DNA of 64,000 nt from Microtetraspora fusca (GTDB lineage: Bacteria > Actinomycetota > Actinomycetes > Streptosporangiales > Streptosporangiaceae): NCBI RefSeq assembly GCF_001570365.1, contig NZ_BBYK01000074.1, positions 1 through 64,000 of the forward strand, read 5' to 3'. A program made the translations under genes and the position numbers. Below the pieces are notes generated by a model. It saw only the letters and a list, made by a program, of their open reading frames with translations, was not told where the DNA came from and did no database searches. Shown one piece after another: positions 47,703 to 58,135 of this stretch (the stretch's first letter is position 1; each line of letters begins with the position of its first letter).

Positions 47703-49181
47703 GTGCGCATCATGGTCGCGGGGTTCCAGCACGAGACCAACACCTTCTCCGCTACACCAGCGGCCTACGACAGCTTCGTCAACGGCGAAGGATTTCCCGC
47801 GCTGCGCCGGGGCGAGGCGCTCTACGAGCTGGAAGAAGTCAACATCGCGATGGGCGGCTTCCTCACCGCCATGCGGGCGCACGACTGCGAAATCGTGCCC
47901 GTGATCTGGGCGGCGGCCTGCCCCTCCGGACGGGTCACCCGCGACGCCTACGAGCGAATCACCGGAGAGATCCTCGACGCGGCACGGGCCGTCCGGCCGG
48001 ACGCGATCTACCTCGACCTGCACGGCGCGATGGCGGCCGAACACCACGACGACGGCGAAGGTGAACTGCTCACCCGACTGCGCGCGATCGTGGGGAGCGA
48101 TGTCCCGATCGTGGTGACCCTGGATCTGCACGCCAACGTCACCGAGCGCATGATGTCCACAGTGGACGCCGCGGTGGGGCTCCGTACGTACCCGCACGTC
48201 GACATGGCCGAGACGGGCAGCCGGGCGGCCACGCTGTTGCTGCGGTTGTGCTCCGGCGAACGGCTCTACCAGCAGTGGCGGCGGATTCCCTTCCTCATCC
48301 CCGTCAACAGCGGCTGCACCGAACTGGAACCTGCCGTGGACGTCTACCGCAGCCTCGGTCCGCTGGGCGGGGACAGTACCTGTCTGTCCTTCGCGGCAGG
48401 CTTTCCCGCCACGGATTTTCCCGAATGCGGCCCGGCTGTGTGGGGGTACGGCGACGACGCCGACGAGTTGCGGAGCGCGCTCGACACGCTGTACGAGGAC
48501 ATCGTGCGGCGGGAGGCCGACTGGCAGGTCAGTTCGCTGCCGCCCGCGGTGGCGATCGCCGCAGCCGGCCGGATGGCCGATGGCGCCACCCGTCCGGTGG
48601 TGATCGCCGATACCCAGGACAATCCCGGCGCCGGCGGTGACGCCCGCACCACGGGCATGCTCCGCGCGCTGGTCGACGCCCGGGTGCCCGCCGCCCTGGC
48701 CGCCATCTGGGACCCCGCCGCGGCGGCGGCGGCGCATGCCGCCGGAGTGGGCAGGACCGTCAACATCGTGCTCGGCGGGCATCCCGGCATCCTCGGCGCC
48801 GAGCCGTTCGAGGGGACGTTCGTGGTCGAGCACCTCGCCGACGGCCGGTGCCGTTACGAGGGCCCAATGATGCGCGGCACCGAGGTCGACTCCGGCCCGA
48901 GCGCCTGCTTGCGCGTCGGCGAGGTGCGAGTAGGGGTGACAAGCCGGAAGGTGCAACTCGTGGACCGGTCCCAGCTCCGGATGCTCGGCATCCACCCTGA
49001 ACGGGAACGGATCATCGTGGTCAAGAGCTCGGTCCATTTCCGCGCCGACTTCGCGCCCGGCGCCGAGGCCGTGCTCGTCGCCGCGGCGCCGGGTCCGATT
49101 CCCGCGAACCCGGCCGACCTGCCGTGGCGACGTCTGCGACCGGGCATGCGCACCGGCCCGCTCGGTCCGGCGGCGCCCTGA
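47703..49181 (+). CDS. M81 family metallopeptidase (MlrC-like), second copy
   Basis: A 492-residue paralogue of the protein at 12556-14025. It has the same landmarks: GFQHETNTFS (residues 7-16), LDLHGAM (104-110) and VTLDLHANVTERM (138-150) with likely metal ligands, TYPHVDMAETGSRAA and the signature DTQDNPGAGGDART. GTG is preceded by GAAGGAGAGG. It probably hydrolyses a cytoplasmic peptide or amide after import by the preceding MFS protein, with the amidohydrolase acting before or after. The two copies differ enough to serve different substrates. Confidence 0.9.
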   Translation: MRIMVAGFQHETNTFSATPAAYDSFVNGEGFPALRRGEALYELEEVNIAMGGFLTAMRAHDCEIVPVIWAAACPSGRVTRDAYERITGEILDAARAVRPDAIYLDLHGAMAAEHHDDGEGELLTRLRAIVGSDVPIVVTLDLHANVTERMMSTVDAAVGLRTYPHVDMAETGSRAATLLLRLCSGERLYQQWRRIPFLIPVNSGCTELEPAVDVYRSLGPLGGDSTCLSFAAGFPATDFPECGPAVWGYGDDADELRSALDTLYEDIVRREADWQVSSLPPAVAIAAAGRMADGATRPVVIADTQDNPGAGGDARTTGMLRALVDARVPAALAAIWDPAAAAAAHAAGVGRTVNIVLGGHPGILGAEPFEGTFVVEHLADGRCRYEGPMMRGTEVDSGPSACLRVGEVRVGVTSRKVQLVDRSQLRMLGIHPERERIIVVKSSVHFRADFAPGAEAVLVAAAPGPIPANPADLPWRRLRPGMRTGPLGPAAP

Positions 49182-49237
49182 AGTTCCACGGCCGACTCAG
49201 TACCCACCGTCCCGAATGCCTTGCGAGAGGAGTCGTC

Positions 49238-50506
49238 ATGATCAGCGGAACGGAACAGACCAGCGTTTTGATCACCAACGCGCGGGTGCTCGACGTGCAC
49301 ACCGGCGAATACCTCGAGGGGGCGAGCGTCCTCGTCGCCGACGGCGTGATCGTGGAACTCGGCGGCAGTGAGGTCAGGGCGCTCGCCGGGAGCACCGTCA
49401 TAGACGCCGAAGGTCGCACCGTCCTTCCTGGTTTCACCGACGCCCATGTGCACGTGACCGCTTGCACCGCGGACCTGGCGGCGCAAGCCGAGTGGTCACC
49501 GACCTACGTGGCCGCTCGGGCCGGCCACATCCTGCGGGACATGCTGCACCGCGGCTTCACCACCGTGCGGGACATGGGCGGCGCCGACTATGGCCTGGCC
49601 GATGCCGTCGACGACGGGTTCTTCACCGGCCCGCGCCTGTTGTTCGGTGGCAAGGCGCTCTCGCAGACCGGTGGTCACGCCGACATGCGCCACCGCGGCC
49701 GGATCGTGGCCGACGAACACCCCCACTGTCCCGCCGTCGGCGTGGTGTGCGACGGTGTGGACCACGTCCGCAAGACCGCCCGTGAACAGCTGCGTACCGG
49801 GGCGCACCACATCAAGCTCATGCTGTCCGGCGGGGTCGCGTCCCCGACCGACAGGGTGGACTCCACCCAACTGTCACTGGACGAGATCCGGGCCGCGGTC
49901 GAGGAAGCGGAGGCGGCCAACCGGTACGTCGCAGGACACGCCTACACCGCACGTGCCATCAACCGCGCGCTGCGATGCGGCGTGCGCAGCATCGAACACG
50001 GCAACCTGCTCGACGAGACCAGCATCGAGCTGTTCAAGCAACACAAGGCGTTCTACGTTCCGACCCTGGTCACCTACCGGACGCTGGCCGACGAAGGGCC
50101 ACGATACGGCCTGCCGGCCGACAGCCACCGCAAGGTCTCCGACGTGCTCGAACACGGCCTGCGGGCCCTGGAGCTGGCCCACCGCGGGGGCGTCCAGATC
50201 GCTTTCGGCACCGACCTGCTCGGCGGCATGCACCCGCACCAAGCGGAGGAATTCGCCATCCGCGCCGAGGTTCAACCCGCCATCGATGTCATCCGTTCCG
50301 CCACGTGCGTCGCCGCACGACTCGTCGGACTGGAGGGCCGCATCGGCGAGATAACGCCCGGCGCCTACGCCGACATCCTGATGGTGGAAGGCGATCCACT
50401 GGACGACATCACCGTACTCGCCCGCCCGGACAAGCACCTGAAGCTGGTGATGAAGGCCGGCCATGTCATGACCCGGTCGACGCTCGGCGTTGTCCGTGGT
50501 TCGTGA
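49238..50506 (+). CDS. Metal-dependent amidohydrolase (imidazolonepropionase/prolidase-like)
   Basis: A 422-residue TIM-barrel amidohydrolase. Metal ligands include the HxH of FTDAHVHV (His70, His72), the Lys in HHIKLMLSGG, His in VAGHAY, His in RSIEHGNLLD and the catalytic Asp in IAFGTDLLGG. The C-terminal beta sandwich ends with GEITPGAYADILMVEGDPLD. This subgroup contains Zn-dependent enzymes cleaving N-acyl amino acids and Xaa-Arg/Pro peptides. GAGAGGAG precedes the ATG. It is the last gene of the Lrp-controlled operon. Confidence 0.92.
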   Translation: MISGTEQTSVLITNARVLDVHTGEYLEGASVLVADGVIVELGGSEVRALAGSTVIDAEGRTVLPGFTDAHVHVTACTADLAAQAEWSPTYVAARAGHILRDMLHRGFTTVRDMGGADYGLADAVDDGFFTGPRLLFGGKALSQTGGHADMRHRGRIVADEHPHCPAVGVVCDGVDHVRKTAREQLRTGAHHIKLMLSGGVASPTDRVDSTQLSLDEIRAAVEEAEAANRYVAGHAYTARAINRALRCGVRSIEHGNLLDETSIELFKQHKAFYVPTLVTYRTLADEGPRYGLPADSHRKVSDVLEHGLRALELAHRGGVQIAFGTDLLGGMHPHQAEEFAIRAEVQPAIDVIRSATCVAARLVGLEGRIGEITPGAYADILMVEGDPLDDITVLARPDKHLKLVMKAGHVMTRSTLGVVRGS

Positions 50507-50539
50507 GGCCGTCTCGGCGCCCGGCAGGACGTTCGCCGG

Positions 50540-51433
50540 TCACGTGTGAGCGGTCGCCGTGCGGGCCATGTCGCCGTAAAGGCGGAAGAGGCGGGGGCTC
50601 TCGCTGTCCGGGCCGGCGTTCTCGTTCAAGAGCGCCCAGCACTGCGCCACGAGCGCTCGGGCGTGGCTGCCCGGCCAGGGCTGCGGGAGCAACTGGGGCG
50701 GCAGGAGCGGGTCGGGCTCCATGGCGCGGGTGAATTCGGCGGCCAGTTCCACCGCGATGGTCAACTGCCGCGCTTCGGAGAGGTCGGCGTGGTCGCGGAG
50801 GCGCTCGAGGCGCGGTTCTGCGACGGCGGTGAGCCGGTGGTAGCGCTCGGCGATCTCGGCCAGCGGCCACAGGGCGCGGGCGAGTGCGGCGGGGTCGTCC
50901 TGGTCGCCCTGGCGCAGGTCCCGGGTGGTCGCGACGGTGAGGTGGTCGAGGACGTCGAGCCGGCGGGCGTGGTCCTCGACGTAGGGTTCCCACGGGTTGG
51001 CGCTGACGTACAGGCCGCCTTGGATGGGAGCGCCGCCCAGGTGGGTGAGCGCGGCGCGCAGGGCGTCGCGTGCGGCGCGGGCGGTCTCGGGAACGGCGAA
51101 GGCGACCAGGTGCCAGGTGCCGTCCCAGGGGGCGAGCCCGGCGTCCTGGCGGAAGGCGTGGGCGACGAATTCGACGTCGAGGCCCAGGGTCTGCTCGGTG
51201 GCGTCGGTGGCCCGCAGTATCGCATTGCGTCCTCTGCCCTCGCGGGTGAAGCGTCCTTCGGCGACCAGCCGCTTGATGCACAGGCGCACCTGCTGGTCGG
51301 TCATGCCCAGCAGATTGCCGGTGGCGTAGACCTCGCCGGTGTCGACCGTGAGGTCGGCGCGGACGAGCGCCTCGACGAGCATCCGGGTGGGGACCTGGAC
51401 GTCCGCTCCCGGCATCTGGGGTTCGGCGGTCAT
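50540..51433 (-). CDS. PaaX family transcriptional regulator
   Basis: A 297-residue repressor. The N-terminal winged helix (VQVPTRMLVEALVRADLTVD, LLGMTDQQVRLCIKRLVAEG, RFTREGRGRNAILRAT) is followed by the PaaX central (PWDGTWHLVAFAVPETARAA) and C-terminal helical domains. Founding members respond to phenylacetyl-CoA; the ligand here may differ. GGAAGG precedes the ATG. It is divergent from an alpha/beta hydrolase and shares a perfect inverted repeat with it. Confidence 0.9.
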   Translation of the reverse strand: MTAEPQMPGADVQVPTRMLVEALVRADLTVDTGEVYATGNLLGMTDQQVRLCIKRLVAEGRFTREGRGRNAILRATDATEQTLGLDVEFVAHAFRQDAGLAPWDGTWHLVAFAVPETARAARDALRAALTHLGGAPIQGGLYVSANPWEPYVEDHARRLDVLDHLTVATTRDLRQGDQDDPAALARALWPLAEIAERYHRLTAVAEPRLERLRDHADLSEARQLTIAVELAAEFTRAMEPDPLLPPQLLPQPWPGSHARALVAQCWALLNENAGPDSESPRLFRLYGDMARTATAHT

Positions 51434-51571
51434 GGTGCGGGCCTTCCGGGTGCGGCCGCGGCGGCACGCCGTGATGGCGACGCCGGCTTCTGGCGAGTAC
51501 GGGCGGACAGCGGGGTGCCCGGTGTGCCGAGCCTATCGACCTCGCCGGACACTCTTTGCCTATCGTCAATT

Positions 51572-51598
51572 AAACTATCGAATCTAATCCGATAGTTT
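51572..51598. promoter_or_regulatory. Inverted repeat AAACTATCG / CGATAGTTT, PaaX operator candidate
   Basis: Perfect nine-base arms with a nine-base AT-rich spacer in the PaaX/hydrolase gap. A further CTATCG lies at 51560-51565, making a partial direct repeat. It covers the likely hydrolase promoter. Confidence 0.6.
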
Positions 51599-51615
51599 TG
51601 ATTGTGAGGGGTATC

Positions 51616-52665
51616 GTGGTTCGCGGGAAACTGCTCCGCCGGCGCGGGTGGCGGGCCGTACTCGTCGCCGTCACCGTGCTCGGGCTCGTCGTGGCCGGCC
51701 TGAGCGGAGTGGTGGTGTGGCAGAACTCCTACGCCATGAACGTGCAGCGGATGACGATCCGCGAGGGCGGACACGAGCTGCGCGCGGTCCTGACCACGCC
51801 GGAGGGCGGCGCACGGCGCCATCCTTTGGTGGTGATGGTCCACGGCGACGGGCCGACCGACGCGACCCACGAGGATGGCTACCAGCCGATCTGGGAGGCG
51901 TTCGCCCGCGCCGGGTACGCGAGCCTGTCCTGGGACAAGCCGGGAGTGGCGGGGGCGCCGGGGAACTGGCTGCACCAGTCCATGGACGACCGCGCGGACG
52001 AGGTCGCCGCCGCCATCGCCTGGGCTCGGTCCCGACCGGACATCGACGGCGAGCGGATCGGCCTGTGGGGCGCCAGTCAGGCCGGATGGGTCATGCCCAA
52101 GGTCGCCAAGCGCACCGGAGTGGCGTTCGTGATCGCCGTCGCCACCGCCGTCAACTGGCTTCAGCAGGGCCGATACAACCTGCTGGCCGAGCTGCGGCAG
52201 GAGCATGCCTCGGCCGCCGAGGTCAAGGAGAGAATCGCCAAGAGTGATCGGACCCGAGAGCTGCTGCGCCGCGGAGCGAGCTACGAGGAGTACGTACGCG
52301 CCATGGGAGACGGCGACGGCATGACCGCCGACCGGTGGGGTTTCATCGGCCGCAACTACACCGCCGACGCGACCGACGATCTGCTCGCGCTGCGCGGAGT
52401 TCCGGTCCTGCTCTTCTTGGGAGGGCTCGACGTCAACGTGGACTCGGCCGACACGGAGACCGTGTACCGCAGGCAGTTGGAGCCCGGCGGCGCCCTCACG
52501 GTCCGCAACTATCCGGACGCCGACCACTCCATGGTCAAGGGCGAGCTCGTCCGGTCCGGCCTCCGGCTCGCGCTGACCGCGATCTTCGCGCCACGGTCGC
52601 TGTTCGCCCCGCACTACCTGGCCGACCAGGAGAACTTCCTGCGCGGCCTCCGCTCCCGGAGCTGA
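51616..52665 (+). CDS. Membrane-anchored alpha/beta hydrolase
   Basis: A 349-residue hydrolase. A signal anchor (AVLVAVTVLGLVVAGLSGVV, residues 14-33) precedes an exported catalytic domain: oxyanion segment MVHGDGPTDAT, nucleophile elbow LWGASQAGW, and catalytic His in YPDADHSMVK; the acid is likely in LGGLDVNVD. The start at GTG 51616 is preferred: it follows GAGGGG, whereas the TTG at 51598 lies inside the operator. An esterase or acyl-peptidase role on an extracellular substrate is plausible, controlled by PaaX. Confidence 0.85.
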   Translation: MVRGKLLRRRGWRAVLVAVTVLGLVVAGLSGVVVWQNSYAMNVQRMTIREGGHELRAVLTTPEGGARRHPLVVMVHGDGPTDATHEDGYQPIWEAFARAGYASLSWDKPGVAGAPGNWLHQSMDDRADEVAAAIAWARSRPDIDGERIGLWGASQAGWVMPKVAKRTGVAFVIAVATAVNWLQQGRYNLLAELRQEHASAAEVKERIAKSDRTRELLRRGASYEEYVRAMGDGDGMTADRWGFIGRNYTADATDDLLALRGVPVLLFLGGLDVNVDSADTETVYRRQLEPGGALTVRNYPDADHSMVKGELVRSGLRLALTAIFAPRSLFAPHYLADQENFLRGLRSRS

Positions 52666-52823
52666 CCCCATCACCCGGACCGCCGCGGCGCCGGCCGGGC
52701 GATATGGAGTGACGGCTGCCCGGCCACGTCCACCGTGCGGGCTCTGCAGTACGCGCACAGGGCACTGCCCGAGAAGAACGCGAGCCCTACGGGAGGATCT
52801 TCTCCCTGGCGGTAATCGAAGGG

Positions 52824-53348
52824 GTGGAGAGGTCATTACCAGGTGTGGACGATTCCGAAGCGCAACTCACCGCGCTATATAAGGGGCACTACCGCAGCGT
52901 GCTCAGTTACGTGCTGTTGCGAGCCGAGCAGCAGACAGCCGAGGACATCACCAGCGAGACATTCCTGATCGCCTGGCGACGGCTCGACCGCGTGCCTGAG
53001 CCGCCGCTGCCCTGGCTGCTCGGTGTGGCCCGCAATCTGCTGCGGACGCAACGCCGGTCCCGGCTGCGCGGACAGAGCCTGGTTGAGCGGCTCGCCGAAC
53101 TGGCCCCGGCCGGCGATGTCGCCGAACAGGTGGCCGAGCGGCAGGCGGCGCTGAACGCGCTCGCGGACCTGTCCGAGCGCGACGCCGAGGCCGTGCTCCT
53201 GGCCAGTTGGTACGGCCTCAGCCCGGCCGAGGCCGCGAAGGTCACGGGCTGCTCGGCCGGCACGTTCAACGTCCGCCTGCACCGCGCCCGCCGCCGTCTG
53301 GCCGACGCACTCGGCTTCACCCGCCTCACCTTCCAGGAGCAGTCATGA
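52824..53348 (+). CDS. ECF-type RNA polymerase sigma factor
   Basis: A 174-residue sigma factor. Region 2 is LTALYKGHYRSVLSYVLLRA, then AEDITSETFLIAWRRLDRVP (-10 recognition). Region 4 is ALADLSERDAEAVLLASWYG, then LSPAEAAKVTGCSAGTFNVR and LHRARRRL (-35 recognition). The start is uncertain: GTG 52824 directly follows GAAGGGG, while GTG 52845 has a looser ribosome site. Its last bases overlap the next gene by four (ATGA), so it is coupled to a membrane protein that is the natural anti-sigma candidate. Confidence 0.92.
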   Translation: MERSLPGVDDSEAQLTALYKGHYRSVLSYVLLRAEQQTAEDITSETFLIAWRRLDRVPEPPLPWLLGVARNLLRTQRRSRLRGQSLVERLAELAPAGDVAEQVAERQAALNALADLSERDAEAVLLASWYGLSPAEAAKVTGCSAGTFNVRLHRARRRLADALGFTRLTFQEQS

Positions 53349-53986
53349 GCGACCTCGACGACCTGATCATGTCCCTGCGCCCCGACACCGACGACGCCTA
53401 CCGGCGCCGCTGCGAGTCCGACCTCGCCCGCACCCTCGCCACTCCTCGCCGCCGCTCCTTCTCCCTGCGGCTGGGGTTGGCGGCGGTGGCCGTTCCTGTC
53501 GTGCTCGTCGGCGTCGTGGCCGCGGTCGCACTGGCACCCGCCCCATCAGAGGATCGCGTCGTCATGGCGGCGAGCCTGCAACAGGTTCTTTCGGCGGGCG
53601 CCGAAGAGCCAGTGATCACGGTCTTCCTGTGCTACGAGGATGACGCATGGCCCGCGTGTGGCGGCAGCACGGGGGATCCCGGAGGCGGCGGCTCGGCGAT
53701 CACCGAGCGGGAGAAGGCGAACGTCAACAAGACGCTGACCACGATGCCGGGGGTGGAGAACGTCACGTTCGAGGACAAGGCCGCCCTGTATGACCGTTTC
53801 CGCAAGAGCTTTGTCAAGTCTGGCGGGAAGCCGGAAGTGCTTGAGCGGCTCACGGTTGAGGACATGCACGAGTCGTTCCGGGTCACGATGAAGCCCGGTG
53901 CGGACTGGCGCCCGGTGATCGAAACGGCGAAGGGGATGTCTGGGGTCGCCAGCGTCATCGACCAAAGATGCAGCTCTTCATGTTAG
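53345..53986 (+). CDS. Membrane protein with FtsX-like extracellular domain; candidate anti-sigma factor
   Basis: A 213-residue single-pass protein. The cytoplasmic N-terminus (residues 1-40, DDLIMSLRPDTDDAYRRRCE) could contact the sigma factor. A membrane segment lies at 41-64. The outside part resembles the extracellular domain of FtsX: VITVFLCYEDDAWPACGG (Cys96, Cys105), ITEREKANVNKTLTTMPGVE, SFVKSGGK, then ESFRVTMKPGADW and GMSGVASVIDQ. In FtsX this domain binds cell-wall hydrolase activators (RipC in mycobacteria). The four FtsX membrane spans are absent. Coupling to the sigma gene suggests it senses envelope or peptidoglycan state. A terminator follows. Confidence 0.75.
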   Translation: MSDLDDLIMSLRPDTDDAYRRRCESDLARTLATPRRRSFSLRLGLAAVAVPVVLVGVVAAVALAPAPSEDRVVMAASLQQVLSAGAEEPVITVFLCYEDDAWPACGGSTGDPGGGGSAITEREKANVNKTLTTMPGVENVTFEDKAALYDRFRKSFVKSGGKPEVLERLTVEDMHESFRVTMKPGADWRPVIETAKGMSGVASVIDQRCSSSC

Positions 53987-54009
53987 AAGATCGCTGAAGA
54001 CGTTGGACT

Positions 54010-54041
54010 TCTGGCTCCACCCCGTCCGGGGCGGAGCCAGA
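54010..54041 (+). terminator. Terminator hairpin after the sigma/FtsX-domain operon
   Basis: TCTGGCTCC (54010-54018) pairs with GGAGCCAGA (54033-54041), with an inner CCCCG-tc-CGGGG stem. The whole 32-base hairpin sits 24 bases after the stop. Confidence 0.65.
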
Positions 54042-54122
54042 GTCGTTGATGCGCACGTTGAACAGGATGAATCGGCGGAAATCCGATGGACGAGGCGGTC
54101 CGGGCGATGCGATAGTCGCGCC

Positions 54123-55358
54123 GTGACTGCGACCACCACCTTGCCCGCGCCCATCTCCCTGGCCGACGGCCTCGTCCTGCGGCAGGCGCAGCCCACGGAC
54201 CTCGACCAGATCGGCGCGCTCCTCGCCGACCGCATGGACGCGGCCGACGCCCTCGACCATCGGCTGGTCGTCACCGACCCGGACGCCGGCTGGTCCGCCT
54301 GCGCCGTGGTCGTCGACGGCGACCGGGTCGTCGCCACCGCGACGCTCCTCGACGAAGACGTACGCGTCGGCGGCGTCCACCTGCCCGCCGGCCAGGTCGA
54401 ACTGGTCGCCACCGACCGCGAATACGAAGGCCGCGGACTCGTACGGGCGCTGATGAAATGGGCCCACGACCGATCCGCCGCCCGCGGCCACGTCGTCCAG
54501 ACGATGATCGGGATCCCGTACTTCTACCGGCTGTTCGGGTACGAGTACGCCATCGACGTCCCGCCGGCGCTGACCGTGCGCACCCCGCCGCCCGGCGACG
54601 GAACACCCGCGCTCCGTCCCGCACAGCCCTCCGACGTCCCCGCCATGGCGGCCCTGCAGGACGCGGCCCAGAGCCGGTTCGACGTGACGATGCCGCACTC
54701 GGCGGCATGCTGGCGATGGCTGCTGGCCCACGAGGCGAGCAACCTCTGGGTCCTGGAGCAGGACGACACCGTCACCGCCGTCGGACGCACCACGCCCCCC
54801 GACGACGAGGTGCTCCTGGCCGAGGCCGCCGCACGCGACGAGACGTCGGCGCGGGATCTGCTCCGCGGCGTCGCCGCCCTGGTGCCCGACAGCGAGGTGC
54901 AGGTCGTCCATCGGGCCGGTACCGTGACCGCGGCCGCCTGGCAGGAGTTCCTCGACCACGAACCGCGCAAGCAGGCGGAGCAGTACTACGTCCGCATCCC
55001 CGACGCCGCGGCGCTGCTCGACCGGCTGCGGCCGCTGCTCTGGCATCGGCTCACCACAGCCGGGATCGATCACGCCGGCCGCGACATCGTCATCTCCACC
55101 TTCGGCGCCCACTACCGGATCCCGGTCAACGCGGACGGCCTCGGCGAGGTCGTCGCCGGCGGCGCGATGCAGAGTCCCGGAGTCGCGGGAGGTGCCGGAG
55201 TGGCGCCCGACTACCTGCCCGCCCTGCTGTTCGGTCCGCACGGCATCGAAGGGCTGACCCGGGTCCGGCCGGACGTCTACGCCCGGGAGGAGGAGCTGTT
55301 CCAGGCGCTCTTTCCGCCGCTCACCGCCGACCTGCTCACCTACTACCTGCCGTACTAG
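54123..55358 (+). CDS. GNAT-family acetyltransferase, Eis-like length
   Basis: A 411-residue protein. The N-terminal GNAT domain has VELVATDREYEGRGLVRALM (acetyl-CoA loop, REYEGRGL) and TMIGIPYFYRLFGYEYAI. A second degenerate GNAT-like part (ALRPAQPSDVPAMAALQDAA) and a C-terminal sterol-carrier-like domain follow, similar in overall size to Eis-type multi-acetyltransferases; orthology is not certain. GTG 54123 lies six bases after GATAGT (54111-54116) with no ribosome site, so it may be leaderless. It converges on the RpiR gene. Confidence 0.82.
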   Translation: MTATTTLPAPISLADGLVLRQAQPTDLDQIGALLADRMDAADALDHRLVVTDPDAGWSACAVVVDGDRVVATATLLDEDVRVGGVHLPAGQVELVATDREYEGRGLVRALMKWAHDRSAARGHVVQTMIGIPYFYRLFGYEYAIDVPPALTVRTPPPGDGTPALRPAQPSDVPAMAALQDAAQSRFDVTMPHSAACWRWLLAHEASNLWVLEQDDTVTAVGRTTPPDDEVLLAEAAARDETSARDLLRGVAALVPDSEVQVVHRAGTVTAAAWQEFLDHEPRKQAEQYYVRIPDAAALLDRLRPLLWHRLTTAGIDHAGRDIVISTFGAHYRIPVNADGLGEVVAGGAMQSPGVAGGAGVAPDYLPALLFGPHGIEGLTRVRPDVYAREEELFQALFPPLTADLLTYYLPY

Positions 55359-55385
55359 GGCGCGTATCGGATTGTGATCAACCTG

Positions 55386-55412
55386 CAGGCTTCGCCCGTG
55401 CGGCGAAGCCTG
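55386..55412. terminator. Bidirectional terminator hairpin
   Basis: CAGGCTTCGCC pairs with GGCGAAGCCTG (11 pairs, five-base loop); outer ATCGGAT / ATCCGAT can extend it. It lies between the convergent acetyltransferase and RpiR genes. Confidence 0.7.
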
Positions 55413-55522
55413 ATCCGATGCCCCCGCTTCCCCGAGGTGACCTACACCCGCTGACCGCGCACTGTCGAACTCGCCGCCCCCCCGTCCGCCGCCGCATGGC
55501 TCCGGTGTGAGAAAAGGAACGT

Positions 55523-56413
55523 TCAGTACGGCAGGAAGATCTGGCGTTCCGTGGCGCTGTCGTCGAAGGCTTCGAGCTGGGCCTGCCCTTCGGCGGCGAG
55601 GGTGTCCAGCATGGTGTGCAGCAGCGCCGTGCACAGAACCGTGGGACCCGCGTGGGAGTCGAACGCGAAATCCGAGCTCACCGGTGCGAGCAGGACCTCG
55701 TCCGCGAGGTCGGTGAGCCGGCCGACCGGTTGATCGGTGATGAGGGCGACCTTCAGCCCCACGCGCCGCGCCCACGTGAGCCCCTGGGCCAGCTCGCGCG
55801 GGTAGCGCGGCAATCCGATGGCGAGCACCCACTCGGCTCCGGCTTCGGCCGCCCGGCTCAGCCGGTCCTCCAGGGGCGACCCCGCGACGTCCAGTACCCG
55901 TACGTCCGGGAGCACCTTTTCGGCGAGGTAGCCGAACAGGTGCGCAAGCGGGGCGGAGATCCGCAGTCCCACCACCAGGAGCGGACGCGACCTGGCCAGG
56001 TGGGCGGCCACCTGCCGAAGCTTACTGAGATCCCCGAGACCGTCCCGCAGCCGCTCGAGGTCGCGGATCTCGGAGTTCACCAGTTCCTGGATCTCGTTGA
56101 GGCCCTCGGCGGGCAGCGCTCGTTGCGGGCCGCCGAACACCGACGAGCGGAGCGCGTCCCGGAACTCGGGGAACCCCCTGAACCCGAGCGCGGCGGCGAA
56201 GCGGGTGACCGACGGCTGGCTGACTCCGACGCGCTCGGCGATGTCGGTGCTGGTGAAGAAGACGGCCTCTTGCGCGTGGTCGAGCAGGTAGCGCGCGATC
56301 CGGCGCTGCGACGGGGAGAGCCGGTGGTCGCCCAAGAGCGAGCGCAGGTTCGCGGAGATCCGCGCCGCGTCCGGCACAGCGAACGGCCGGCCGGTCTCCC
56401 TGGCGTGCCCCAT
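55523..56413 (-). CDS. MurR/RpiR family transcriptional regulator
   Basis: A 296-residue regulator. The RpiR helix-turn-helix is LSPSQRRIARYLLDHAQEAV, FFTSTDIAERVGVSQPSVTR, FAAALGFRGFPEFRDALRSS. It is followed by a SIS sugar-phosphate-binding domain (PLLVVGLRISAPLAHLFGYL, WVLAIGLPRYPRELAQGLTW). The start at 56413 (MGHARETG) follows GAGG closely; a longer form is open upstream. The family usually senses phosphosugars or amino-sugar phosphates. No obvious target operon is adjacent, apart from the carboxypeptidase gene upstream on the same strand. Confidence 0.9.
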   Translation of the reverse strand: MGHARETGRPFAVPDAARISANLRSLLGDHRLSPSQRRIARYLLDHAQEAVFFTSTDIAERVGVSQPSVTRFAAALGFRGFPEFRDALRSSVFGGPQRALPAEGLNEIQELVNSEIRDLERLRDGLGDLSKLRQVAAHLARSRPLLVVGLRISAPLAHLFGYLAEKVLPDVRVLDVAGSPLEDRLSRAAEAGAEWVLAIGLPRYPRELAQGLTWARRVGLKVALITDQPVGRLTDLADEVLLAPVSSDFAFDSHAGPTVLCTALLHTMLDTLAAEGQAQLEAFDDSATERQIFLPY

Positions 56414-56610
56414 CCTCGACCACTTCCCTTCTCCACGGAGTGACAGACCCAGCGACGTTCTCACCGCCCGGCGGGCGACGCCATCGGAATGGTCAAGTGA
56501 CTTCATGGGGCGCGAAGTTCCCGTGGGCCTACAACGTCGCCGGGTTTCTGCCGCTCATCCGCCGCAGGGTGCCTGTGGGCAGCCGCCGGCGTTCGTTCGG
56601 CTCATACGCC

Positions 56611-56640
56611 GCCGGGCGGCCCCTGGAGGGACCGCCCGGC
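56611..56640 (-). terminator. Terminator hairpin after the M14 carboxypeptidase gene
   Basis: GCCGGGCGG pairs with CCGCCCGGC around CCCCTGGAGGGA, which can itself pair partly. It lies 26 bases past the carboxypeptidase stop on the minus strand. Confidence 0.65.
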
Positions 56641-56665
56641 TCATCGGGTGCGTGGTGACGTCCGC

Positions 56666-58135
56666 CTAGTTCTTCGGGCCGTTGCCGTTGAAGCGGGTCT
56701 TGCACTCCTGCAGTCGCACATCGACCTTCTCGCCCCTGTCGACGGTGACGTGCACCGTCTCGAGGACCTCGCCGGTCGGCCGGGCGCAGGTGAGCGTCCA
56801 GCTCTCCTTGAGGAACTTTCCAGGGCCGGTGGCGACGACGCCGGTCTCGGTGTAGGCCGGGACCGGCCGCACCGACGGGTTGACGTGCCAGGTGAACTTG
56901 CCGTTGGTCGGAGTGATCAGGCGGGACTCCAGGTGGGTCGGAACCGCGATGGGCGGGTCGATGACGCTGCCCGCCTGCTTGATCGGCGCCGTCCACAGGT
57001 CGAAGTCCTTCGTGATCGTGAGGACCGCGCCCTTCGGCCCCTGGCCCGTGATCACGGAGTGTCCCGCCGGGTCCGCCGCGTACTCCAGGGCCACCATGAA
57101 CGCCTCGCGGTTCGACTTGCCCTCGTAGCGCCCGGTGCCCAGGTAGTCCTCGATCACCTCGGGGTAGGTGTTGTTGGTCGACTGGGTCTTCATGATCTCG
57201 AACGTGAACCCGAGGCCGCGGGTGGCGTAGTAGGACCAGTCCTGGGTCTCGCCGGTCGTCTCGTAGTCGAAGCCCGACTTCATGCCCGTGTAGCCGTTCT
57301 TGGCCGCCATCGCGTCGGTCAGGGCGGCGTAGGCGGCCTCGTCCGGGGCGTCGCCCGCGCGCTTCTCCAGCGGCGGACGGAGGAGGGTGTGACCAGAGGT
57401 GTGGTTCGTGATCAGGACGGTGACCTGGTTGGCCGAGGTCAGGTCCATGATGTTCTGGATCTCCGGCTCGGAGCCCGGCCCGGGGCCGCGGGTCGTCGCG
57501 TTGGAACCCGCGTTGCTGCCCCAGCCGAAGGGGTAGTTGCGATTGATGTCGACCCCGGCGCTGCTGGCGCACGTCGGCGAGACGCCGCAGCTGGTCCGCC
57601 GGTTGAGCATGAACCCGTCCACGTTGACGACCGGGACGAAGATGACCCGTGCCTGGTTGAGCAGGCGCGTGATCCGCGGGTCCTTCCCGTCGTTGTTGAT
57701 CAAGTCGTAGGCGAACTCCAACGTGTGCTCACCCGAGGGCCACTCGTTCCCGTGGTGCATGCCCATCATGAACAGGACCGGCTTGCCGTCGGAGGCGTCG
57801 ACGTCGTGCGTCACCTCGATGCCGTACACCTCGCGGCCCTGGCGGGTCTTGTGCGGCAAGGTGATGTGCTTGACGAGCCCGGGGTGCCGGGTGCTCAGCG
57901 CGAGCATCTCGTCGTTGTAGTCCGTGATCGTCCGGTAGGTGGTGCGACCGCTGGGCAGAGCCGCCGCCTGCGCCGCCAGTTCCTGGACGGCCGCCGCGGG
58001 GTCGGCCGACTCGGCGAAGCCGGCCGTGGCCGCCGGAATGCTGAGACTTCCGAGCAATCCGACGCCCAACGCAAGCGTCAAAACGCGTTTCCTGGCGCTT
58101 GGAGTCGTGGGCGGCTGCGAGCCTCGTGAAGACAT
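56666..58135 (-). CDS. Secreted M14 zinc carboxypeptidase
   Basis: A 489-residue exoprotease. The signal peptide (SARKRVLTLALGVGLLGSLS, AATAGFA) spans residues 13-41. The M14 catalytic domain shows MGMHHGNEWPSGEH (zinc ligands His128 and Glu131), VFVP-like NVDGF, GVDINRNYPFGWG (substrate carboxylate Arg), TNHTSGHTLLRPP (third zinc His) and FTFEIMKT (catalytic Glu). The C-terminal about 100 residues form a beta-rich domain with two Cys. AAAGG precedes the ATG. It would trim C-terminal residues from external peptides, feeding the peptide importers of this region. Confidence 0.93.
   Translation of the reverse strand: MSSRGSQPPTTPSARKRVLTLALGVGLLGSLSIPAATAGFAESADPAAAVQELAAQAAALPSGRTTYRTITDYNDEMLALSTRHPGLVKHITLPHKTRQGREVYGIEVTHDVDASDGKPVLFMMGMHHGNEWPSGEHTLEFAYDLINNDGKDPRITRLLNQARVIFVPVVNVDGFMLNRRTSCGVSPTCASSAGVDINRNYPFGWGSNAGSNATTRGPGPGSEPEIQNIMDLTSANQVTVLITNHTSGHTLLRPPLEKRAGDAPDEAAYAALTDAMAAKNGYTGMKSGFDYETTGETQDWSYYATRGLGFTFEIMKTQSTNNTYPEVIEDYLGTGRYEGKSNREAFMVALEYAADPAGHSVITGQGPKGAVLTITKDFDLWTAPIKQAGSVIDPPIAVPTHLESRLITPTNGKFTWHVNPSVRPVPAYTETGVVATGPGKFLKESWTLTCARPTGEVLETVHVTVDRGEKVDVRLQECKTRFNGNGPKN

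Follow-up and report, generated by a model that had tools for sequence, protein, structure and literature searches.

We analysed a stretch of 64,000 nucleotides from Microtetraspora fusca (assembly GCF_001570365.1, contig NZ_BBYK01000074.1, positions 1 to 64,000 of the forward strand), here called the window, in which the gene of an extracytoplasmic function (ECF) sigma factor is followed on the forward strand by that of a membrane protein, a proposed anti-sigma factor, with an extracellular domain (ECD) of the FtsX type. The two genes overlap by the four bases ATGA, the ATG of the second lying at 53345 and the TGA stop of the first at 53346–53348, as had been claimed in an earlier reading of this DNA made without database searches (the sequence-only reading). 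That reading placed the sigma start at 52824, where the open frame as read begins (52824–53348). In relatives a TAG codon stands immediately upstream and the frame opens at a GTG matching the one at 52845; we therefore favour GTG 52845 as the most likely true start, giving a gene at 52845..53348 and a protein of 167 residues. This protein has the ECF layout: Pfam region 4 (PF08281, Sigma70_r4_2, 52.2 bits) and region 2 (PF04542, Sigma70_r2, 34.0 bits) both score above their cut-offs, and the Pfam scan returned no match to region 3. The NCBIfam subfamily models, as distinct from the general model of the ECF superfamily, all fall below cut-off. A promoter-like element, GGTAATC-N18-TTACC (52811..52840, forward strand), ends four bases before GTG 52845, in a leaderless arrangement.

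The second gene (53345..53986, forward strand) encodes 213 residues, comprising a cytoplasmic N-terminus (residues 1–44, 53345..53476) that we propose as the sigma-binding segment, one membrane span (residues about 45–63, 53477..53533) and an FtsX-type ECD (residues 91–204, 53615..53956). A hydropathy scan found the single span that had been described before, with its best 19-residue window beginning at residue 45 in place of the 41–64 given then. The outside domain had been likened to the FtsX ECD, and it matches Pfam FtsX_ECD (PF18075) at 48.8 bits (cut-off 23.5); the top structural matches of the predicted protein are FtsX ECDs. Likeness to the FtsX ECD, known from Mycobacterium tuberculosis (4n8n/8idb), Streptococcus pneumoniae (6mk7/6he6) and Escherichia coli (6tpi), extends over profile, fold and most core positions, including Phe at the positions of M. 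tuberculosis F61 and F126. The cysteines at 96 and 105 are where they had been reported, and this pair (VFLC...C) recurs in all 36 FtsX proteins compared. It is unlike the C73–C78 pair of M. tuberculosis FtsX: window C105 aligns with C73, window C96 with T63, and C78 falls at window K124. The protein also differs from FtsX in having one span rather than four, in lacking the C-terminal permease part (PF02687 was absent from a Pfam scan up to E 1, which found PF18075 only), in its pairing with a sigma gene and in the lack of an adjoining FtsE. The missing spans and the missing ftsE had both been noted earlier; the seven frames that we scanned from 49124 to 58135 include no FtsE-type ABC ATPase, and the ordinary FtsX of the genome, with ECD, permease part and an adjoining ABC ATPase, lies elsewhere.

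The source genome holds four PF18075 loci: the true FtsX, the window protein, a second sigma–ECD pair at C59, whose sigma factor is close to SigE, scoring 136.6 bits against the family model TIGR02983 and so narrowly missing its cut-off of 141.55, and a tandem-ECD protein (locus L004). We searched 60 relatives, 250 genomes of the family and, taking the second sigma factor as the query, 120 family genomes, fetched the loci that resembled pairs, and removed as copies those proteins that share their last 110 residues. This survey yielded at least 73 distinct sigma–ECD pairs, a lower bound given that only pair-like rows were fetched, in two distant sigma lineages: 7 with the sigma type of the window (type 1), 54 of a second type (type 2) with one ECD and 12 of the second type with two. 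The second gene begins at −4, the same four-base overlap, in 71 of the 73; the total includes three loci in which a gene may be broken or the frame in error (L065, with the sigma frame in two pieces, L074 at +37 and L082 at +14). The pairs are spread over 64 names of genomes or records, of which 62 are numbered genomes; the named hosts are Planotetraspora thailandica and Microtetraspora malaysiensis, the latter possibly a duplicate of genome G064, as their pair scores are alike. All pair rows in our ECD tree are labelled Streptosporangiaceae, the family of the window. The survey bears out the conservation on which the sequence-only reading had staked its proposal. A search of a plasmid collection added a type-2 tandem-ECD pair from Nonomuraea gerenzanensis, outside the 73.

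Class-wide searches were run at thresholds that could overlook pairs of lower score or greater distance. Among the matches listed from 394 genomes (E up to 1e-25, seven candidates scored per genome), no pair form appeared outside the family, and the out-of-family matches open at profile position 33 or beyond and belong to frames of 301–565 residues, as FtsX does. The type-1 profile run on 296 genomes (E up to 1e-14) matched nine, all within the family.

Within each lineage, the N-terminus of the partner is retained while the outside part is exchanged between the FtsX ECD, tandem ECDs, the CU044_5270 type and others. Among the eight sigma factors closest to and including that of the window (76% identity and more), seven precede ECD proteins. 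The 22 less similar members of the lineage (L150–L171, 75% and less, from a longer list) have longer partners with a like N-terminus and no ECD. Eight non-ECD partners tested (L047, which is L153, and seven more) all match NCBIfam CU044_5270 (NF038083), five of them above its cut-off. These partners resemble the window protein in sigma lineage, N-terminus and place behind the sigma gene, and differ from it in an extracellular part that is not an FtsX ECD; the window protein itself reaches 13 bits against NF038083 (E 0.066, residues 16–83 only; cut-off 100 bits). A literature search on the name CU044_5270 found no paper. A profile built from the N-termini of 23 non-ECD partners (one a duplicate) recovered all seven ECD partners at 49–56 bits. 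The best of 2100 shuffles scored 15.4 bits. Among 1181 background N-termini, the three top scorers (18.5, 17.9 and 12.0) are true partners read from a longer start, after which the score drops to 6.4.

The second lineage behaves similarly. Its 19 nearest sigma loci (L209–L227) have 18 ECD partners and one CU044_5270 partner above cut-off (L221), and 13 less similar pairs (L208 and L228–L238) have 12 other outside parts and one ECD (L235). Other sigma factors of this lineage that are equally dissimilar do have ECD partners (for example L008 and L011), but these were found via the ECD. With a profile from the N-termini of 13 non-ECD type-2 partners, 63 of the 64 ECD partners outscored every one of 2560 shuffles; the sole miss, L040, has an N-terminal extension. 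A common N-terminus for both lineages was rejected, cross-matches between them rising no higher than shuffles. We also set aside a beta-propeller reading of the other type-2 partners, which drew only sub-cut-off matches (PF13449, PF02897, PF07676).

The sigma factors and the N-termini diverge together. Across 68 of the 71 pairs at −4, selected by length and score limits, sigma divergence correlates with N-terminal divergence at a rho of 0.77 and a partial rho of 0.74, a value that none of 500 permutations reached, compared with a partial rho of 0.15 for the ECD (10 of 500). In the second lineage alone (61 pairs), the values are 0.64 for the N-terminus (0 of 500) and 0.18 for the ECD (8 of 500). 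The membrane protein is thus both encoded with the sigma factor and co-diverges with it, as a membrane anti-sigma factor would be, and the comparison supports the view that its cytoplasmic end behaves like a sigma-binding segment, tracking the sigma lineage while the outside part changes.

The conserved elements upstream of both lineages look like self-activated, leaderless promoters. By patterns that were written after the sequences had been inspected, 28 of 30 regions ahead of sigma genes of the window lineage carry GGTAATC-N18-TTACC or a close variant (3 of 3000 shuffles), and 46 of 63 of those in the second carry GCA(A/G)C-N15-17-CGTCTC (3 of 6300 shuffles), with the first in-frame start exactly six bases after the element in 45 of the 46. 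The window element is the only site in its genome to match GGTAATC-N18-YTACY with zero mismatches. The same element precedes ECD and non-ECD pairs of the window lineage, which suggests that the sigma factor kept its target while the sensor changed. A first type-2 genome search, with a spacer one base too long and up to two mismatches, was discarded (68 and 68 sites versus 107 and 124 in the control). With the corrected spacer and up to one mismatch there are 11 sites versus 7 in the control: the pair's own (C59:78462), one at C59:76070 just before a related sigma gene (C59:76176) and nine others. For both types, these pattern searches did not distinguish a further regulon from chance. At L208 (G000:C59:73500-83000), two related SigE-type sigma genes lie close together, each preceded by the type-2 element with one mismatch, and their partners are an ECD protein and a 542-residue protein with another outside part.

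We interpret the window genes as, most probably, an ECF sigma factor and a membrane anti-sigma factor that joins a short sigma-binding segment to an exchangeable FtsX-type sensor. This sigma/anti-sigma reading is well supported by comparison, as regards the identity of the ECD, the conservation of the pair and the sigma-binding-like N-terminus; to that extent, and thus in part, the sequence-only reading is supported. We infer a course of inhibition, release and self-activation as follows. The 44-residue N-terminus, with two short helices, would hold the sigma factor at the membrane; the span would carry the protein across, and the ECD, probably by binding a protein partner, would act as the sensor outside. 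A change at the ECD, such as the gain or loss of a partner, or cleavage, might free the sigma factor through a change of shape or through intramembrane proteolysis. Free sigma would then transcribe its own operon from the GGTAATC-N18-TTACC promoter, plus other targets.

The N-terminus is too short for a class I anti-sigma domain, which consists of four helices and about 100 residues on average (PMC7406223), and is perhaps class-II-like. Its likeness to the two helices of class II (CnrY-like) factors is one of size and of helices predicted at residues 4–10 and 15–32 with low confidence (pLDDT below 50 for most of residues 1–32); the paper from which we draw the CnrY-like comparison sets anti-sigma domains of fewer than 50 residues aside as possible class II. 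The overall design resembles that of the RsgI anti-sigma-I factors of Clostridium thermocellum, which, according to PMC12203970, combine an intracellular sigma-binding N-terminus, one span and varied outside sensors. The two also differ: RsgI binds SigI, not ECF sigma factors, has a periplasmic autocleavage domain, and carries mostly carbohydrate-sensing modules, where the window protein has an FtsX ECD. Among the titles and abstract openings listed by literature searches, with most subscription journals and the ECF reclassification paper (10.1093/nar/gkaa1229) outside their coverage, there is no FtsX-ECD anti-sigma factor.

Several observations weigh against the sigma/anti-sigma interpretation. 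One of the eight close sigma factors, that of L146 (genome G180), has a partner cut off just behind the N-terminus. The N-terminus is encoded directly behind the sigma gene, and their co-divergence could therefore partly be linkage. The structural model has pLDDT below 50 over most of residues 1–75. Of the FtsX-ECD and anti-sigma profile searches that the sequence-only reading had proposed for the second gene, the first succeeded, whereas no known anti-sigma profile gave a clear match: NCBIfam NF052375 reached 16.9 bits (E 0.0049; cut-off 100), and Pfam returned no anti-sigma family up to E 1. The type-1 promoter pattern with up to one mismatch found 16 sites in the genome, a count in which its own site figures once per strand, and the reversed control gave 21, so that no regulon is seen. 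Finally, the flanks of L035, L036, L048 and L125 contain no long match to those of the window.

What the ECD senses is a separate matter. The FtsX ECD normally grips or recruits enzymes that cut the cell wall, and by analogy the reporting of cell-wall hydrolase state is plausible and the most natural guess for the window protein. In M. tuberculosis FtsX, a cluster of F61, F110, F113 and F122 grips RipC (PMC10694151). We compared these positions in 7 type-1 ECDs, 54 type-2 single ECDs and 36 FtsX proteins. The F61 position is Phe or Tyr in 6 of 7 type-1 and all 54 type-2 domains (60 of 61 sensors) and in all FtsX. At F122, the residue is Met in 7 of 7 type-1, Met, Leu, Val or Ile in 54 of 54 type-2, and Leu, Met, Ile or Val in 36 of 36 FtsX, so that the Phe of M. 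tuberculosis is itself the unusual residue. The F113 position is mostly aliphatic in sensors and FtsX alike, F126 is Phe or Tyr in 59 of 61 sensors, and the cysteine pair is present in every sensor (61 of 61). A further cysteine near the C-terminus occurs in 4 of 7 type-1 and 43 of 54 type-2 domains. The F110 position departs from this pattern and counts against hydrolase sensing: Phe or Tyr is found in 30 of 36 FtsX versus 3 of 7 type-1 and 19 of 54 type-2 domains, the last count coming from 47 of the 54 rows (the six commonest letters) in a gapped stretch, where a few more aromatics are possible. The gripping face thus appears partly kept and partly loosened, a pattern that neither proves nor excludes hydrolase sensing.

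The ECD tree (149 domains, 123 columns) unites the seven type-1 domains in one clade (100/98) outside that of true FtsX, which forms a clade of its own. Two long type-2 rows, L139 and L235, fall inside the FtsX clade on weak support, L040, L076 and L082 are its sisters, and most sensor ECDs therefore lie outside FtsX. On this placement, subject to the open deep forks of the tree, a direct origin of the window ECD from FtsX was set aside.

The strongest alternative accepts the sigma/anti-sigma pair and holds that its ECD no longer senses hydrolases: it would either serve as an all-purpose binding module, whose ligand might be an antibiotic, a lipid, a peptide, a lipoprotein or a secreted ECD, or mainly dimerise; we give it a chance only slightly short of even. 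The loosened F110 position speaks for it, as do the tandem sensor forms, the stand-alone ECDs that look secreted or lipoprotein-like by eye, some of them near pairs, and the absence of an NlpC/P60-type hydrolase from the seven window frames scanned. The retained F61, F122 and F126 positions and the invariant cysteines argue the other way. That the partner of the sensor is a peptidoglycan hydrolase or a regulator of one is, by analogy with FtsX, a somewhat less probable proposition, which we hold tentatively. Still more speculative, and on balance doubtful, is the extension that anti-sigma factors of the Streptosporangiaceae vie with FtsEX for hydrolases, whether free or engaged, and thereby inform RNA polymerase of how cell-wall cutting is balanced, in parallel in two sigma lineages and with tandem-ECD versions.

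It is improbable that the membrane protein is instead an envelope protein that is merely co-transcribed, or a regulator that acts positively and depends on the sigma factor. Inhibition of the sigma factor is our inference, and the title of PMC7509140 presents RskA as both activator and inhibitor of SigK; yet the N-terminus is lineage-specific, persists when the remainder of the protein is exchanged, and diverges with the sigma factor. A decayed ftsX copy lying behind a sigma gene by chance is refuted by the pair survey and has next to no likelihood: broken pairs do occur (the truncated partner at L146; L010, without sigma region 4), but at least 73 pairs exist, 71 with the same overlap, most sensor ECDs lie outside the true FtsX clade, and true ftsEX is found elsewhere in the genome.

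To our knowledge, it is an open question by what means bacteria monitor their own cell-wall hydrolase activity, and an anti-sigma factor carrying the hydrolase-recruiting domain of FtsX would, if the sigma/anti-sigma reading with hydrolase sensing is true, be a direct read-out of that activity. Gene expression may in this way be tied to cell-wall state in soil actinobacteria. The two lineages also offer many natural examples of sensor replacement with the sigma-binding end kept, which could help to find and engineer sensors.

The seven frames scanned around the pair match amidohydrolase, PaaX, S15/S33-type hydrolase, GNAT, RpiR and M14 carboxypeptidase families, with one overlapping frame unmatched. 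Some M14 enzymes act on cell-wall peptides. The M14 zinc carboxypeptidase gene (56669–58135) lies 2.7 kb behind the pair, and the flanks of L035, L036 and L048 show no long match to it and no sign of conserved linkage; with this gene as the only find and no NlpC/P60-type gene among the seven frames, a hydrolase gene beside the pair was rejected.

Further ECD proteins occur in other settings. Loci L004, L043, L044 and L045 encode tandem-ECD membrane proteins (two each in L044 and L045), and neither sigma lineage is represented in the stretch examined; the N-termini of these proteins form a type of their own and resemble one another (EELSFG...REP or similar). At L010 (genome G008), the frame of sigma region 2 runs on into a span and an ECD. 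Six loci (L119, L122, L131, L132, L134 and L135) encode an additional ECD protein near a sigma–ECD pair, that of L119 with a start that looks by eye like a signal peptide; such proteins are possibly soluble partners or decoys of the sensor. Stand-alone ECDs with a lipoprotein-like start by eye are found at L038, L039 and L042 and, in Embleya, at L240 and L242. The Embleya ECD proteins came from the plasmid-collection search, and the stretch examined around them holds no sigma gene of either lineage. The plasmid-borne protein of L240 is annotated as 'permease-like cell division protein FtsX', and a protein of L241 bears the same name; since ECD proteins can be annotated as FtsX, systems of this kind may be hidden under that name.
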